From Mammaliicoccus sp. Dog046 (GTDB lineage: Bacteria > Bacillota > Bacilli > Staphylococcales > Staphylococcaceae), in assembly GCF_034039665.1 (NCBI RefSeq), contig NZ_CP120131.1, positions 1,660,446 through 1,724,445 of the forward strand: DNA of 64,000 bases, given 5' to 3'. The notes below the pieces were generated by a model. The model saw only the letters and a program-made list of their open reading frames with translations, was not told where the DNA came from and ran no database searches. The translations under genes and the position numbers were made by a program. Below are positions 7,185 to 30,091 of this stretch, piece after piece (within the stretch, counting starts at the first letter, position 1; each line of letters starts with the position of its first letter).

Positions 7185-8342
7185 TTATCTTCTAGAGCGT
7201 CTAGAGCGTCTATCTTCTCTATTTCTAATGAAACTTGGAATATCACTATCATCAGTTGATTCATTTGTAGGTTGATTATCAAATGAAGCTTTTCTACCTA
7301 GTGATTCACCTTCTTCTCTATTTGAAACAGTTTCTTCTGTGTTTCCACCAAATGCGCCACCAGATTGTGGTTTACGTGCATTAGAAGGTTTGTCATTGAA
7401 ACCTGTTGCGATAACTGTAACTACTAATTCATCTTGTAACTCTGGATTAATTACAGTACCGAAAATCATATTTACATCTTCATCAGCTGCATCTTGGACG
7501 ATATCTGCTGCTTCTTGTGCTTCGAATAATGATAGAGATTCTCCACCAGTAATATTCATTAACACACCTTGAGCTCCAACGATTGAAGTTTCTAATAATG
7601 GAGATGAAATAGCTTTTTTAGCTGCTTCAATTGCTCTGTTTTCACCAGATGAAACACCAATACCCATTAATGCTGAACCTTGGTTAGACATGATTGTCTT
7701 AACATCGGCAAAGTCTAAGTTAACTTCCCCAGAAACTGCGATTAAATCTGAGATACCTTGTACCCCTTGACGTAATACATTATCAGCTTCTTTAAATGCT
7801 TCCATCATTGGTGTTGATTTATCAACGATATCTAATAAACGATCATTAGGGATAACGATTAATGTATCAACAGCAGCTTTCATAGATTCTACACCAGCAG
7901 CAGCTTGTGTTTGACGTTTACGTCCTTCAAAGCTAAATGGACGAGTTACAACACCTACTGTTAATGCACCCATTTCTTTTGCAATTTTAGCAACTACAGG
8001 CGCAGCACCAGTACCAGTTCCGCCTCCCATACCAGCAGTTACGAATACCATATCCGCACCTTGGATTGCATCTTCTATTTGTTCACGTGATTCTTCTGCA
8101 GCTTTTTTACCAATTTCAGGGTTAGCTCCAGCGCCTAAACCACGTGTTAATTTTTCACCAATTTGAATTTTAGATGAAGCTTTTGATAAATTTAATGCTT
8201 GACCATCTGTGTTAATTGAAATAAATTCAACATTGTTCATACCATGATCTATCATACGGTTAACAGCGTTGTTACCTCCGCCACCAACACCTATTACTTT
8301 TAATGTAGCTAAATGATTAAACCCTTGCTCAAATTCTAACAT
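7185..8342 (-). CDS. ftsZ: Cell division GTPase FtsZ
   Basis: Tubulin-like GTPase that polymerises into the Z-ring at mid-cell. The tubulin signature GGGTGTG is at residues 106-112 and the N-terminal nucleotide-binding [11 protein letters not shown] at 20-30. The T7 loop/NDRLL region and the C-terminal conserved peptide (DIPSFIRNR, which recruits FtsA and SepF) are intact, followed by an Arg-rich tail. 385 aa is normal. It lies 28 nt downstream of ftsA and is followed by a terminator. Confidence 0.98.
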
Positions 8343-8370
8343 TTAATATCCTCCTAATCTTTATGACCCA

Positions 8371-9765
<1,395 letters not shown>

Positions 9766-19870: not shown

Positions 19871-20860
19871 CTATTTCATCAAAGTATACGTAATGATTAT
19901 CGCAAGCAAGATGATAATCACAATAATATGTGTCTTTAAATACATATACATTAAAGCAAAACATTCTCTAATATATGCATTGGGATAAAAATAATACTTT
20001 GATGAACCACCAAATATATTGGCATTTATTTTTAATTCTTTCGATAAACATGCTGCTCGCAATACATGAAAATGACTCGTCACTATCGTTACAATTGGAT
20101 TTTTCTTAAACTTCTTCATTATCTTCATAGAATACATTAGGTTTTCACTAGTATTCGTAGATTGATTTTCTAAAATGATATCTTCAATGTTTATACCTTG
20201 TTCTAATAAATAATTCTTCATTGCTTCAGCTTCACTAATCATTTCATCAGGTCCTTGACCTCCACTAACAATGATCAATGCTTCCGGATTGCTCTGTTTT
20301 ATTTTTATAGCCTTATCTAATCTTGCTTGAAGCAACGGTGTCACTTTTCCTTCGATAAGACCAGCACCTAAAACAATGATAAATTCACTATTATGCTTTT
20401 TAGATACACGATTAATAATCCACGTGTACAAGTTATGCAATATAAATATCAGATTAAAATAATAAAATGTGAACGACAATAAGATTAATATCAAACCATT
20501 TAGACAATCTACAAAGATATATGGTTTAAATATTATGACTAGAAAGTTAAATAGAATAAATATCCCGTAGCCTAAGACGATAGTATTCGTTACAACTTTA
20601 CCTTCATTAGCAATTTTCTTTTTAGTATTTAAAAGTGACAACAACATGATCACGATGATGATTAAACTATAAACAATATTGCCCATGAGTAAATAATTTA
20701 TATTCATATTTAGTTGTAATTGAGGAACTACCATTCCAAAAAATATACTACTTAAAAGCGCAATTATCCATGCACCTAATATGAAAATGTTTTTGTACTC
20801 TCTAAACTCTATTACATAACTAATAATAAACAAAATGAGCAAACTCACCGTTATTAACAT
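19871..20860 (-). CDS. YdcF/ElyC (DUF218) family membrane protein
   Basis: Membrane protein of 329 aa. About five N-terminal TM helices (residues 1-150) precede a soluble DUF218 domain and one C-terminal TM helix (about 305-325). The DUF218 signature is clear: IVLGAGLIEGKVTPLLQARLDKA, IIVSGGQGPDE, NQSTNTSENLMYS and VTSHFHVLRA. Family members (SanA, ElyC, YdcF) are linked to envelope integrity or undecaprenyl-lipid processes, but the reaction here is unknown. A GTG in frame at 20875 is upstream, but GGAGGTGA fits the ATG at 20860. Not part of the conserved mra or rdgB neighbourhood, so accessory. Confidence 0.88.
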   Translation of the reverse strand: MLITVSLLILFIISYVIEFREYKNIFILGAWIIALLSSIFFGMVVPQLQLNMNINYLLMGNIVYSLIIIVIMLLSLLNTKKKIANEGKVVTNTIVLGYGIFILFNFLVIIFKPYIFVDCLNGLILILLSFTFYYFNLIFILHNLYTWIINRVSKKHNSEFIIVLGAGLIEGKVTPLLQARLDKAIKIKQSNPEALIIVSGGQGPDEMISEAEAMKNYLLEQGINIEDIILENQSTNTSENLMYSMKIMKKFKKNPIVTIVTSHFHVLRAACLSKELKINANIFGGSSKYYFYPNAYIRECFALMYMYLKTHIIVIIILLAIIITYTLMK

Positions 20861-20942
20861 GCTTGTCACCTCCACTCCTTTAAGTATAAAAAATTATATC
20901 ACTATCACAACGAATATACATCATTTTAAATTTATCCTTTTA

Positions 20943-20957
20943 ATTTTTCAGAATTTT
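20943..20957 (+). promoter_or_regulatory. Possible CodY box
   Basis: ATTTTTCAGAATTTT differs at three positions from the CodY consensus AATTTTCWGAAAATT and lies just upstream of the -35 of the aminotransferase homologue. CodY senses branched-chain amino acids and GTP. AT-rich DNA yields chance matches, so this is tentative. Confidence 0.4.
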
Positions 20958-20968
20958 CAATCTTTATA

Positions 20969-20997
20969 TTGTTTTAGGTCAACATAGCTGATATAAT
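20969..20997 (+). promoter_or_regulatory. SigA-type promoter of the aminotransferase homologue
   Basis: TTGTTT (20969-20974), a 17-bp spacer, and a perfect TATAAT (20992-20997). It lies about 35 bp upstream of the AGGAGG ribosome site of the gene at 21034. Confidence 0.7.
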
Positions 20998-21033
20998 ATT
21001 TCTCATTGATATAAATTACACAGGAGGAAACAA

Positions 21034-22077
21034 ATGATGCCCCATTATACGAGCCATACAGAAACAAACCACTTTTCCGAAACTCAAATGTTAACAATGA
21101 CATATCAAACAAGCGAAGGATGGTCCCTTCCAGAAATTAAGCCCTATGCACCAATAACCGTTTCCCCAAGTGCACAATGTCTCCATTATGGTCAAACTGT
21201 TTTTGAAGATATAAAAGTATTCAATATAAATGATGACATTCATATATTTCAGCCACTTGATCATTTAAATAAGTTTAATCGTTCATTAAGAAGAATCGAA
21301 ATGCCAGAAGTAAATCCTGATCAAATGCTTACCTATCTTTCTACTTTACTTGAAGAAAATACCTCTTTTTCCTCAAATCAAACAATCAGTTGTGCTCAAC
21401 TCAGATTATTTATGTTTGCGTCTGAAAGTAAGTTAGGTGTTAGTAAATCAGATACGTACGAATGTATCGCCTTTTTATCTCCTTTAGCATCAACTCACAT
21501 GTCAAAAGAATTAAATGCTATGCAAGTACTTGTTGAAGAAAAGCTCATCAAGTCAATTTCTGGTGGTGCTGGTACTTCACAATTTGGTGGCAACTATGCT
21601 TCTACATTTACTGCACAAATAAAAGCTAATCAACTTGGTTTTGATCAAGCATTGTGGCTTGATGGTAAGTATAGACACTATGTTGAGGAAGTTGGCAATA
21701 TGAATGTATTTTTTGTGATTAGCGACAAAATCATAACACCACAATTAAACGATAGTATACTTCCAGGTGTGACACGCCAATCAATCATTTTGTTAGCTAA
21801 ACAATTAGGTTATTCGATAGAAGAACGTGATATTTCTATAGATGAGGTCATTTCAGAAAGCTATAATGGACATTTAACTGAAATATTCTGCACGGATACT
21901 TTAAATACAATCACTTATGTCGATCGCTTAAAGTACAAAGAAGAAAACATCACATTGCATAATACTACAATTGCTCAACATCTATTGAATACATATGTAG
22001 ATATTCAATTAAACAACCGACTAGATGAAAATCATTGGAATTACAGTTTGCCACATGGTACTACTGTTCAATTATAA
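21034..22077 (+). CDS. Branched-chain aminotransferase homologue lacking the PLP lysine
   Basis: Class IV aminotransferase-fold protein of 347 aa, similar along its whole length to IlvE: HYGQTVFEDIK, RLFMFASESKLGV, GGNYASTFTAQIKANQLGFDQALWLDG, EEVGNMNVFFV and LPGVTRQSI. The lysine that forms the Schiff base in IlvE (K159 in E. coli, before GGNY) is Gln here (Q183, codon CAA at 21580-21582). The phosphate-binding Arg (E. coli R59) is Lys80, the FEGLK motif is FEDIK, and the SGTAA loop is TDTLN. The Tyr (Y188) and Glu of the active site remain. This suggests a pseudoenzyme or altered function rather than a working transaminase. The start follows AGGAGG at good spacing; the frame is intact, so it is not simply decaying. 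Confidence 0.85.
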   Translation: MMPHYTSHTETNHFSETQMLTMTYQTSEGWSLPEIKPYAPITVSPSAQCLHYGQTVFEDIKVFNINDDIHIFQPLDHLNKFNRSLRRIEMPEVNPDQMLTYLSTLLEENTSFSSNQTISCAQLRLFMFASESKLGVSKSDTYECIAFLSPLASTHMSKELNAMQVLVEEKLIKSISGGAGTSQFGGNYASTFTAQIKANQLGFDQALWLDGKYRHYVEEVGNMNVFFVISDKIITPQLNDSILPGVTRQSIILLAKQLGYSIEERDISIDEVISESYNGHLTEIFCTDTLNTITYVDRLKYKEENITLHNTTIAQHLLNTYVDIQLNNRLDENHWNYSLPHGTTVQL

Positions 22078-22098: not shown

Positions 22099-22142
22099 AA
22101 AGCACCGATTATTAGTAACTATTACTAACGATCGGTGCTTCT
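22099..22142. terminator. Bidirectional terminator between the aminotransferase homologue and ftsW-like gene
   Basis: AAGCACCGAT (22100-22109) pairs with ATCGGTGCTT (22131-22140) with a TTAGTAA/TTACTAA inner stem. It serves the plus-strand gene and the convergent minus-strand gene. Confidence 0.8.
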
Positions 22143-22153
22143 TATATGTATGA

Positions 22154-23332
22154 TTATTGTTTCAACTCTTTATTGATTTTTCTACTTGTCGCCAAAAGTA
22201 TACCTAGTGCAATACTGATACTTAAGAATGACGAGCCACCATAACTTAATAACGGCAAAGTGACACCGGTTAATGGTATTAATCCAGAAATTCCAGCTAA
22301 ATTAATAAAAACTTGCATAAATATATAACTTGAAATACCAATACAAATCATTTTATAAAAATGGTTTGATGTCTTATTTGCATAAATAACGCCCTTGAAT
22401 GTAATAAAAGCATACATCGCAATAATTACTAACACACCGACTAATCCAAGTTCTTCAGAAATTACAGCAAATATAAAATCAGTATGTGGTTCAGGCAGAT
22501 ACCCTAGTTTCATAATCCCATTACCAAGACCTTTTCCAAAAAAACCACCATTACCAATTGCTAGCAATGCATTCGCTAACTGATACCCATCTCCATTTTC
22601 ATATAAAAACGGATTAGCAACCACTTTAATTCTTTTCATTCTATAAATATTTTGTGCATCAAATAGTAGTGTGTATACAAGGTAAATAATCATAGGTAAA
22701 GCCGTGATTGAAAATATTTGTATTTTGATTTTGTTTTTTATATCTGAATACAACAACATAAAGGCTATAATCGCACTATTTAAAAGTGCACCCCCTAAAT
22801 CACCTTGAATTAAAATTAGCATAATACCAAAACCTAATACTAATAAAGGTGACACAAGCGAGCTTAAATTAAAATGACTACCCGCACGTAATCGACGATC
22901 AATAATGTATGACAAATATAGTATAGAAGAAATTTTCAACAACTCTGACGATTGTATATTTACGATACCTAAATTCAACCAGTTTTTAGAACCATTAATT
23001 TCACTACCGAACAACAACGTAATTACAAGTAAAGCGAGTACTACTGTTAAGATTACTTGCTGCATCTCTTTCCTCTGAAATACATTAATGTTCACTCTAT
23101 AACTCATCGTAATCACAACTAAACTACCAATACAGAAATATATAAACTGTCTCTTAATAAAATACTTATCACTAATAGGTACACCATTCGTTAAAGCACC
23201 ATTATTAGCAGAAACCATACTCGCACTGTATATCATCACTACGCCAATCATCGCAAGTATAAAATAAGTGAACAGTATACCGATATCTCCTCCCGAACTC
23301 TTTTTAAATTTAAATCGCTTCTTGAAATTCAT
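22154..23332 (-). CDS. FtsW/RodA/SpoVE-family glycan polymerase (FtsW-like)
   Basis: SEDS-family peptidoglycan polymerase with about 10 TM helices and 392 aa. Nearest in style to staphylococcal FtsW: MIYSASMVSANNGALTNGVP near the N-terminus, GSEINGSKNWLNLG, AIGNGGFFGKGLGN, LGYLPEPHTDFIFAVISEELGL, and GVTLPLLSYGGSS near the C-terminus. The usual staphylococcal ftsW lies beside pycA upstream of ctaA; here it lies alone in an accessory stretch, so it is likely a paralogue. No class B PBP gene is beside it. Confidence 0.9.
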   Translation of the reverse strand: MNFKKRFKFKKSSGGDIGILFTYFILAMIGVVMIYSASMVSANNGALTNGVPISDKYFIKRQFIYFCIGSLVVITMSYRVNINVFQRKEMQQVILTVVLALLVITLLFGSEINGSKNWLNLGIVNIQSSELLKISSILYLSYIIDRRLRAGSHFNLSSLVSPLLVLGFGIMLILIQGDLGGALLNSAIIAFMLLYSDIKNKIKIQIFSITALPMIIYLVYTLLFDAQNIYRMKRIKVVANPFLYENGDGYQLANALLAIGNGGFFGKGLGNGIMKLGYLPEPHTDFIFAVISEELGLVGVLVIIAMYAFITFKGVIYANKTSNHFYKMICIGISSYIFMQVFINLAGISGLIPLTGVTLPLLSYGGSSFLSISIALGILLATSRKINKELKQ

Positions 23333-25880: not shown

Positions 25881-26866
25881 ATGAATAATGGCAAGAAAAA
25901 ATTTATTTGGGGCTGTATGGGTTGTTTAGGAGTTTTCGTAATACTAGCTATCATTTTGCAGGATGTGCTGCATTAGTTAGCAATGATTCATCAAACTCTA
26001 GTAATTCATCAAGTAAATCCAATAAAGAAAAAGTATATAAAATTGGTGAAACAGCTAAAAATGGTGATTTAGAAGTTACTGTGAATGGTATTGAGACAAC
26101 TAAGCAGGTTGGTCCTTCTATCGCACCGACACAAGCAAAAGATACGTATGTTGTAGCTGATGTAACGATCAAAAATAAAGGTAACGACAGTCTGACGATC
26201 GATACTAATATGTTTAAATTAAAAGCTGGAGACAAAACAGCAGATGCAGATTCTACTGGTTCAATTAGCGCTAACCAAAGTGATAATGGCTCTATTAGCA
26301 ACTCATTCTTCCTTGAAAAAGTAAATCCTGACAGTACTATTAAAGGTAAAGTTGCGTTTGATGTATCAGAAAAAGTAGCTAATGATAAAAATAAAAAATT
26401 AGTTGTATCATCAAGTTTATTTAGTTTTAAAGAAGTTACATTTGATTTGTCTGATGAAAAACAATCAGCAGAAAAAAAGGAAGACAAAAAGGACGATAAA
26501 GCAACTGTACAGTCAGACACTCAACCAGTTGAAAACATCACAAATGTTAATTCAAGCAGCAATACAACTACTAACAATGTAGCGGTTCTCACTAATTCAC
26601 CTACTTCAAACAATGTAAATGAAAATAATACAACATCAGAAATAAACGAAGAAGAAAATATTTATGAAACTACAACATTTGAAGATGAACCTCAAATCAA
26701 TGATATTACTTATGAACAGTATCTAGCTGCGCAAGACCTTCAAATGACTGGCCCTACAGACGATATTGGCGATGGACCTGGTTTAAGTTCACCACCTGAA
26801 GAAACATTCCAAGAATATGAAACTCGAGTGCAAGAAGAACTAGATCTATATACTGTGCCAGAATAA
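25881..26866 (+). pseudogene. Exported DUF4352-like protein broken by a 1-base deletion
   Basis: The ATG at 25881 opens MNNGKKKFIWGCMGCLGVFVILAII and then stops at a TAG by 25977. One extra T in the TTTT run at about 25955-25959 joins it to FAGCAALVSNDSS and a frame open to 26866, giving a protein of about 328 aa: an N-terminal membrane/lipobox-like segment, a Ser/Asn linker, a DUF4352-type immunoglobulin-like domain (YKIGETAKNGDLEVTVNGI ... FKEVTFDL, about 150 aa) and an unusual acidic Asn/Thr/Glu-rich tail of about 120 aa. An in-frame TTG at 25907 gives an artefactual N-terminus. The function is unknown. This is the second adjacent gene with a 1-base loss in its signal region. Confidence 0.75.
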
Positions 26867-28345: not shown

Positions 28346-30091
28346 TTAAAACGTTGTATTCAACAACATTTTGTTTAATATCATTAATTGTTCTGGTATT
28401 GTATTTTTCGATACATCAGGATGAGCTTTGATATGTTCATCGACTTGATTCATTTTTATAATGTTATCCCCTTCAATTTTCGAGATATGTGAAAAATTAA
28501 AAGATACATTCTCAGAACCTATTATATACTTTTCATTATTTGAACCTGCTTTAAGATATTCGTTAATATTATCGCTGATATCTTCTTTTCTTAAATCTTT
28601 AAGAAAATGTTCATCTTTCACATTATATTCACCCAAACTTATAATTGGATCAACGGCTAAACATTTTAAGTCTAATTTTGAACCATAATATAATGAACCT
28701 GTACCACCTTTAGAAGCACCATATAATACAATGTCTTCTTCACTAATATTAAGTTCTTCTTTAACTCTCATAATGGCATTCGTAATATCTTTTTCAAAAG
28801 TATCATTATTCACAGAGTTAATGTAATGTGAGCCATGAGATAGGTTTAAATCCATAATTCTCATAGTATACACATTTTTGACTAAACTTCTCTCAATTTC
28901 ACTAAAGAATTTAGGGAACATTCTGCTAGGCATTAAATAATTGTCATATCCTTCAACGTTTGGCATACATGTGAATATAACAATCAGTTTTTTATCAATA
29001 GAACTTTTATTTTCTTTACGGTCTAAAGGTTTATCTAGAGTATAAAAAACATCACCTTCTTGATGTAGATCATTCCTTTGCCACAATTCATTAATATATT
29101 TGCGTTTATATAGTTTTGATATACCGTCTTTATGAAGATATAAAATATAGTCATTCTTGAGCAATTCTTTATACAAGTTATAAATTTTTTCGTTTCTTCT
29201 AGACATTTCAATGATATTTTTTTCTGAGTTTAATATAACTTCAACAGTTTTAGTGTGTAAAAGTTCTAATTCATCATCAATATGAACGCGTTGGACACTT
29301 CTTGGCAAATTATCTACCGAACTGTTGTGATTTTTGTATGTAATATTAACTAATTTATTTAAAAATTCATTATAAAACTTATTCTCATAATGTAAATAAT
29401 ATGGTCCCCATACATGATTTTCATCTAACTTAAAGTTAGTATTTGTCATATCAAGTACTTCAACATCGAAATTATTAACTATATAATCGTCTAATTTATC
29501 CCATATCTTATTCATAGATTCAAAATTTTGTAGCGTAATGTTCTGTTTAGTTCTTAATTCAGTTAATGTAGTATCGTCCGTGAAGATATCTGTAAATCTT
29601 GCTTTAACTAAAACAACTTTACATCCTGGTACTTCATTATTTATGAAATTAAAAAATTTATGTATAGCTGAACTCCAAATTTCAACATACTGGTCGAAAT
29701 CATCATTAATATTTAGTACATCAGATGTATCTATATTATCAATACCTTCAAAATTAGGGTTGTTTGTTATATAGTTGTTATCTTTAATTTTCAACAGACC
29801 GAATTTCACGTCTGGGTTTAGATCCATTAATAAATATTGTGGTTTTTCTTTTTTTAAAGTTTCCAAGAAACCTTTGTCAAATTCTCTTAATAATAAATTT
29901 TGAACGTAATTCGTTTTATTTTTAATTGATTTTGTAACTTTTAATTCGAGTTTATCTGACATCAAACTCGGAATAGCTGTTTGATTTTGATGAGCGATAA
30001 CATCAAAAAATAACTTATAATATGGATTAAATTTAGAGTTAAAATTATCTCTTGTAATACATGATCCAACTGTAGCAACTTTGATAGTCAT
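28346..30091 (-). CDS. Two-domain protein: DUF6270/SGNH-like plus alpha/beta-hydrolase-like
   Basis: 581 aa with no signal peptide or TM helix. The N-terminal half (1-250) opens with KVATVGSCITRDNF, the DUF6270-type GSC block; its C-terminal part holds a KLDENHVWGPYYLHY motif, in the place of an SGNH-hydrolase DxxH. A charged link follows (about 260-365). The C-terminal half (368-581) looks like an alpha/beta hydrolase: LYGASKGGTGS has a GxSxGG nucleophile elbow (Ser460), with an Asp in DPIIS (481) and His in DEHIKAH near 556. This second half resembles XcbB/CpsF and Asp2-type proteins of capsule and adhesin-export systems. A role in modifying a surface glycan is an inference. Its neighbours are unrelated. 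Confidence 0.6.
   Translation of the reverse strand: MTIKVATVGSCITRDNFNSKFNPYYKLFFDVIAHQNQTAIPSLMSDKLELKVTKSIKNKTNYVQNLLLREFDKGFLETLKKEKPQYLLMDLNPDVKFGLLKIKDNNYITNNPNFEGIDNIDTSDVLNINDDFDQYVEIWSSAIHKFFNFINNEVPGCKVVLVKARFTDIFTDDTTLTELRTKQNITLQNFESMNKIWDKLDDYIVNNFDVEVLDMTNTNFKLDENHVWGPYYLHYENKFYNEFLNKLVNITYKNHNSSVDNLPRSVQRVHIDDELELLHTKTVEVILNSEKNIIEMSRRNEKIYNLYKELLKNDYILYLHKDGISKLYKRKYINELWQRNDLHQEGDVFYTLDKPLDRKENKSSIDKKLIVIFTCMPNVEGYDNYLMPSRMFPKFFSEIERSLVKNVYTMRIMDLNLSHGSHYINSVNNDTFEKDITNAIMRVKEELNISEEDIVLYGASKGGTGSLYYGSKLDLKCLAVDPIISLGEYNVKDEHFLKDLRKEDISDNINEYLKAGSNNEKYIIGSENVSFNFSHISKIEGDNIIKMNQVDEHIKAHPDVSKNTIPEQLMILNKMLLNTTF

Follow-up and report, generated by a model that had tools for sequence, protein, structure and literature searches.

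The locus and the family membership of its gene

The window (the whole stretch of 64,000 nucleotides of Mammaliicoccus sp. Dog046 DNA that was analysed) carries on its forward strand an intact open reading frame for a branched-chain aminotransferase (BCAT) of the ilvE_II type, with fold type IV, which is complete in length but has lost the lysine of the cofactor site. The gene and the elements around it are the following:

19871-20875, reverse strand: divergently transcribed DUF218 (YdcF-like) gene, present at the locus in 8/8 Mammaliicoccus species, carriers and non-carriers of the BCAT paralogue alike
20943-20966, forward strand: CodY-like overlapping box with the core TTTTCAGAATTTTCAA at 20945-20960, conserved in the orthologues (consensus from PMC10415144)
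20969-20997, forward strand: promoter with -35 TTGTTT, a 17-nt spacer and -10 TATAAT, resembling the canonical ilvE promoter
21022-21027, forward strand: ribosome-binding site AGGAGG
21034-22077, forward strand: lysine-less BCAT/IlvE paralogue, 347 aa, monocistronic
22100-22140, forward strand: rho-independent terminator hairpin between the paralogue and the convergent ftsW-like gene (-22.3 kcal/mol, z = -7.6)

An earlier note on this DNA had described the gene as full length, alignable with IlvE throughout and equipped with a promoter, a ribosome site and a terminator. All of these signals could be located, and the NCBIfam models PRK13357 and ilvE_II (E 9e-85 and 3e-68), as well as the mycobacterial BCAT structure 3dtf (E 6e-56), align with the protein from end to end. 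Its single domain is Pfam Aminotran_4, which exceeds its cut-off. However, the bit scores against the two curated NCBIfam models lie 20-23 bits under the respective cut-offs (284.5 vs 307 and 230.3 vs 250.05), so that the protein is a member of the BCAT/IlvE (ilvE_II) family by homology and predicted fold, but falls short of the score demanded of a functional equivalog. An AlphaFold model built on a shallow alignment (pLDDT 73, pTM 0.78) supports the BCAT fold, and all of the structural matches listed for it are BCATs, with TM values of about 0.75-0.8. The pLDDT of the model falls below 50 at 177-191 and 210-221, that is, in the active site, where the lysines are too uncertain to be placed; therefore, we draw no conclusion on the pocket from it.

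Three other genes of the window deserve mention in their own right. The gene convergent with the paralogue (22154-23332, reverse strand) encodes an extra FtsW/RodA-type (SEDS) protein whose nearest relatives are encoded in M. sciuri (74%) and M. lentus (63%), in both cases at other places; a fragmented copy occurs in the genome G005, and each genome has other SEDS genes. The DUF4352 protein at 25907-26866 (forward strand) was called from a TTG start and has a lipobox-like AGCAAL near this start, which suggests a lipoprotein with an out-of-frame signal peptide or a misplaced start. A protein of 581 aa encoded at 28346-30091 (reverse strand) contains a DUF6270 domain, with a weaker match to Asp2 of the accessory Sec system in its C-terminal half.

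Replaced residues in the cofactor site

Comparison of the window copy with its orthologues in four other Mammaliicoccus species and with 32 lysine-bearing BCATs delineates the following positions, all on the forward strand:

21208-21210: D59 where BCATs have an invariant glycine in the pocket (FEG to FED), in 5/5 orthologues
21271-21273 (AAG): K80 replacing the arginine that contacts the PLP phosphate, K in 5/5 orthologues and R in 32/32 others
21424-21450: ESKLGVSKS (E131-S139), counterpart of the inter-subunit BCAT loop, with K133, S137 and K138 fixed in the orthologues
21580-21582 (CAA): Q183 replacing the lysine that forms the Schiff base with PLP, Q in 5/5 orthologues and K in 32/32 other aligned BCATs
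21889-21906: the loop C286-T-D-T-L-N291 replacing G-T-G-T-A-A, with L290 in 5/5 orthologues and D or S at 288

Pairwise alignment sets GAGTSQFGGNYAS of the query against GTGAAKFGGNYAA of 3dtf, with GGNYA following in both, and thereby places Q183 at the position of the PLP lysine. K80 stands in the context HLNKFN in the window copy vs NFKRIN in IlvE, and the segment T287-D288-T289-L290-N291 occupies the position of TGTAA in IlvE. We take the stretch C286-N291 to be the counterpart of the phosphate/substrate-carboxylate loop of BCATs. The three replacements had been proposed in the earlier note from the window copy, the loop as a change of an SGTAA-type motif to TDTLN; the alignments with IlvE relatives and structures uphold the equivalences of Q183 and K80 and extend the observation from one gene to a clade. 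As the same replacement is found in five species, a sequencing error or an oddity of one strain is ruled out. The accompanying claim that the tyrosine and the glutamate of the site are kept is correct for the window copy (Y188 and E219), but does not extend to the clade, given that the M. lentus orthologue has F at the former position and that of G002 has D at the latter.

On the whole, seven clade-fixed switches can be recognized (G59D, N77H, R80K, R173K, K183Q, K249Q and A290L), a switch being a position that is invariant in the 32 lysine-bearing relatives and bears one different residue in all five copies. These switches concentrate in the presumed pocket (4/17 vs 3/114, Fisher p 0.0055), and clade-invariant positions are likewise commoner in the pocket than elsewhere (12/19 vs 104/328, p 0.006). 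Both p-values are only indicative because the list of 19 pocket positions, which was transferred from the structure of human BCATm, was compiled when it was already apparent which residues had changed, and the five copies, which share ancestry, are non-independent. The residues Y52, F57, R124, L134, V136 and T289 are kept in 5/5 orthologues. By sequence comparison, the cofactor pocket was altered in concert and stayed fixed thereafter.

A PLP enzyme that lacks the lysine of the aldimine, the arginine at the phosphate and the glycine of the carboxylate loop should no longer carry out ordinary transamination, and the paralogue is very probably incapable of it. It might instead be an enzyme of altered chemistry that holds PLP or PMP non-covalently and carries out slow transamination or another reaction, with K80, K133, K138 or K173, the new lysines that are invariant in the clade, perhaps substituting for the lost one. 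A precedent of sorts is the laboratory mutant K145Q of the related D-amino acid transaminase, which was reportedly studied kinetically as an enzyme (Bhatia et al. 1993, cited in PMC8105722). It shares with the paralogue the change of lysine to glutamine in a fold type IV transaminase; however, it is an engineered single change with the other cofactor contacts intact, whereas the change in Mammaliicoccus is natural and accompanied by others. In the alignment, K80 corresponds to the former phosphate contact and K173 to a former arginine, and none of the new lysines falls at the aldimine position. Furthermore, the glycine loop is changed as well, and Y188 and E219, which would be expected in a PLP enzyme, vary in two of the five copies. 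Hence, we consider a retained catalytic role rather improbable.

The concerted switching of the cofactor-contacting residues, together with the conservation of the pocket above the rest of the protein and the six residues kept throughout, would also agree with a homodimer acting on its own, in which the rebuilt pocket binds an amino acid, an oxo acid or a phosphorylated ligand as a binder or sensor, with no catalysis. Against this stand the presence of a single Aminotran_4 domain, with no fused output domain, and the want of a consistent candidate signalling neighbour at the locus, the flanking ydcF gene being found in all species regardless. Such a self-sufficient sensor is unlikely, though less so than retained catalysis.

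Distribution, descent and selection

Orthologues of the gene are present in five of the eight Mammaliicoccus species sampled (the sample including M. sciuri NCTC 12103 and M. lentus NCTC 12102), always at one site downstream of bshC, about 2 kb past it and divergent from the DUF218 gene, and are 48-58% identical to the window copy over the aligned part. A normal, lysine-bearing IlvE is encoded once in each of the eight genomes. Among 108 Staphylococcaceae genomes, a second full-length BCAT (in profile searches) and the strict DNA pattern Q-[FY]-G-G-x-x-A are each confined to the five carriers. A wider family of Q-bearing BCATs in Bacilli found no support, as a scan of 399 genomes of the class with the same pattern recovered two additional matches, neither of them a BCAT gene. 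A contig scan with the single protein as query gave no match, and one with the alignment recovered M. sciuri and M. lentus, together with a Ruminococcus MAG that encodes a lysine-bearing copy. Among the plasmid matches listed, only ordinary BCATs of at most 40% identity were seen, the best being from an S. aureus plasmid and having the lysine; in viral contigs there were two BCAT loci only.

The DUF218 gene is a landmark rather than a partner, since it is present in all eight species irrespective of the paralogue. No operon or neighbouring partner was found at the locus, and the genes downstream differ among species; the search for Q-bearing homologues and their neighbours suggested by the earlier note leads to the five orthologues and to no consistent partner gene.

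In the maximum-likelihood tree the lysine-less copies are monophyletic (100/100), and the branch that separates the other members of the family (98/94) places them with the Mammaliicoccus IlvE, although the long branches suggest that their exact placement is less certain than these support values imply. The branching order of the gene tree agrees with that of the species tree, and carriers occur on both sides of the deepest split of the latter, which was midpoint-rooted. The tree, the distribution of carriers across this split and the ilvE-like promoter with its CodY-like box (see below) are best fitted by a single origin, namely a duplication of ilvE along with its promoter in the ancestor of the genus, with later losses.

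The paralogue is missing from three of the eight species. In one of these (G005, the sister of the carrier G002), AGGAAGCAATTTATCATG stands opposite AGGAGGCAATTTATCATG of G002, and this match of 28 nt (89%, E 1.7e-4) over the ribosome site and start is probably a remnant of the gene. The copy of G007 (L046, about 7865-8923) is interrupted by an in-frame TAA at codon 92 but is otherwise open, and probably represents a null allele that arose recently in this strain. Given the absence from three species and the nonsense codon in another, the paralogue is dispensable.

The G001/G007 pair, the two closest carriers and the only pair with unsaturated synonymous change, gives a dN/dS of 0.21 at a dS of 0.19 for the paralogue, a value that may include a short unconstrained period given the stop codon in G007; the same pair gives 0.05 for ilvE and 0.07 for ydcF. 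The remaining pairs, with pS of 0.64-0.73, yield rough values of 0.13-0.29. Between species, the paralogue has accumulated about ten times as much amino acid change as IlvE. The glutamine in 5/5 orthologues, a lysine-bearing IlvE in the same genomes and a dN/dS of 0.21, which indicates purifying selection, together mark the clade as a probable pseudoenzyme of a known enzyme family.

The losses, the 28-nt remnant, the nonsense codon and the rapid sequence change could point to a redundant duplicate that is losing its function, with the apparent constraint being a leftover of the past. Yet four copies are open and free of frameshifts despite identities of 46-58%, the promoter, ribosome site and terminator-like hairpin are retained, the dN/dS is about 0.2, and Q183 and the six other switches are the same in all five copies, the broken one of G007 included. 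Simple decay is therefore improbable, and we have good confidence that the paralogue is kept by selection in most carriers. The role other than standard catalysis for which the earlier note had assumed such selection is likely, in view of the dN/dS and the seven fixed switches, but its maintenance is not general, as the three absences and the nonsense codon indicate.

The promoter region and the proposed role

When the ilvE promoter of G002 is used as query, the region upstream of the paralogue is the best of 2242 windows and is equalled in 0/500 shuffles; with that of G000 itself as query, another window ranks first. Common to the ilvE and paralogue promoters are a -35 element TTGAAT, CTGATATAC/A and CATTA. 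The resemblance supports descent from the Mammaliicoccus ilvE independently of the tree. The spacer of the promoter contains TAGGTCAAYRTAGCTGA (20975-20991 in the window), which is near-invariant in the five orthologues and thus conserved beyond the needs of a spacer; close matches to it occur nowhere else in the eight Mammaliicoccus genomes. A regulon defined by the spacer element TAGGTCAAYRTAGCTGATATA was considered and rejected, as it is found only before these genes, apart from two 3-mismatch matches in G006 that are at the level of chance.

The CodY-like box adjoins the -35 element in 5/5 orthologues, with the form TTATCAGAATATTCAA in M. lentus, and in three species its core block agrees with the overlapping CodY consensus over 16 contiguous bases; CodY sites often overlap, by 6 nt (PMC10415144). 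Four species show 5 mismatches to the CodY 24-mer and the window copy 7, where 0.6 and 27 sites, respectively, are expected by chance per 64-kb sequence. The 24-nt match of the window copy by itself is thus at chance level, and the weight of the box comes solely from its conservation. With one mismatch, the 16-nt block recurs in the same genomes upstream of genes that we take, from sequence recognition, to be those of a BrnQ-type transporter and hisZ/hisG. The canonical ilvE has a CodY-like box at the equivalent place, and codY is present in the genome. Taken together, these patterns in the DNA make CodY control of the paralogue likely.

BCATs are dimers in which the substrate pocket takes a loop from the neighbouring subunit. 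The ESKLGVSKS counterpart of this loop is almost fixed in the clade, with three residues being clade-specific, and its conservation and the probable shared regulation hint at a hetero-oligomer with the active paralogue. Because of these two features, we prefer mixed dimers with IlvE as the main mode of action, if only tentatively; the fast divergence from IlvE is unlike that of a tight obligate partner and counts against it.

The best overall explanation, to which we assign a probability of roughly 0.4, is an IlvE-derived pseudoenzyme that acts through mixed dimers with IlvE or through ligand binding. In this scenario, ilvE would have been copied together with its promoter in the Mammaliicoccus ancestor. 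The copy would still have the BCAT fold and a large part of the pocket for the substrate, while the inability to form an internal aldimine with PLP and the loss of the standard phosphate contacts would have ended normal transamination. The paralogue would be transcribed from a separate CodY-type promoter under a shortage of branched-chain amino acids and would then most probably modulate the genuine IlvE, either in mixed dimers in which its inter-subunit loop completes the IlvE active site or by accommodating an amino or oxo acid in the pocket of the paralogue. With odds somewhat short of even, it may control branched-chain amino acid metabolism in connection with the CodY response, whether as a regulatory subunit or as a sensor of a ligand.

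With IlvE and related BCATs of the ilvE_II type (TIGR01123, PRK13357; 3dtf, 3ht5 and human BCATm), this pseudoenzyme shares the fold, the full-length alignment, the pocket residues Y52, F57, R124 and T289 and, probably, descent from ilvE with its promoter; it differs from them in the absence of the PLP lysine and phosphate arginine, the altered G-x-G-T-A loop and scores under both curated equivalog cut-offs. Most of the pseudoenzymes described among PLP enzymes come, to our knowledge, from fold type I and from eukaryotes. A precedent for a lysine-less partner is LCB1/SPTLC1 of serine palmitoyltransferase, a PLP-fold paralogue that stands alongside a catalytic one, with which it forms a heterodimer (PMC3794620), but it is of fold type I, eukaryotic and experimentally established, whereas a heterodimer in Mammaliicoccus is a proposal from sequence. 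A limited search of the open-access literature found no description of a BCAT pseudoenzyme or of a Mammaliicoccus BCAT.

In this clade, the catalytic site has been rebuilt alike in all five sister copies, and the active parent enzyme is available beside them in bacteria that are small and can be cultivated. This allows a direct examination of the route by which a transaminase acquires another role, and of whether bacteria employ an inactive IlvE copy to adjust the synthesis of branched-chain amino acids. On a practical note, metabolic models of the carrier species would go astray if the gene were annotated as a "branched-chain amino acid aminotransferase". A separate irregularity concerns the sole ilvE of another Staphylococcaceae genome (G026:C27:79127-80034), which matches as three pieces in different frames, suggesting either a broken ilvE or assembly errors.
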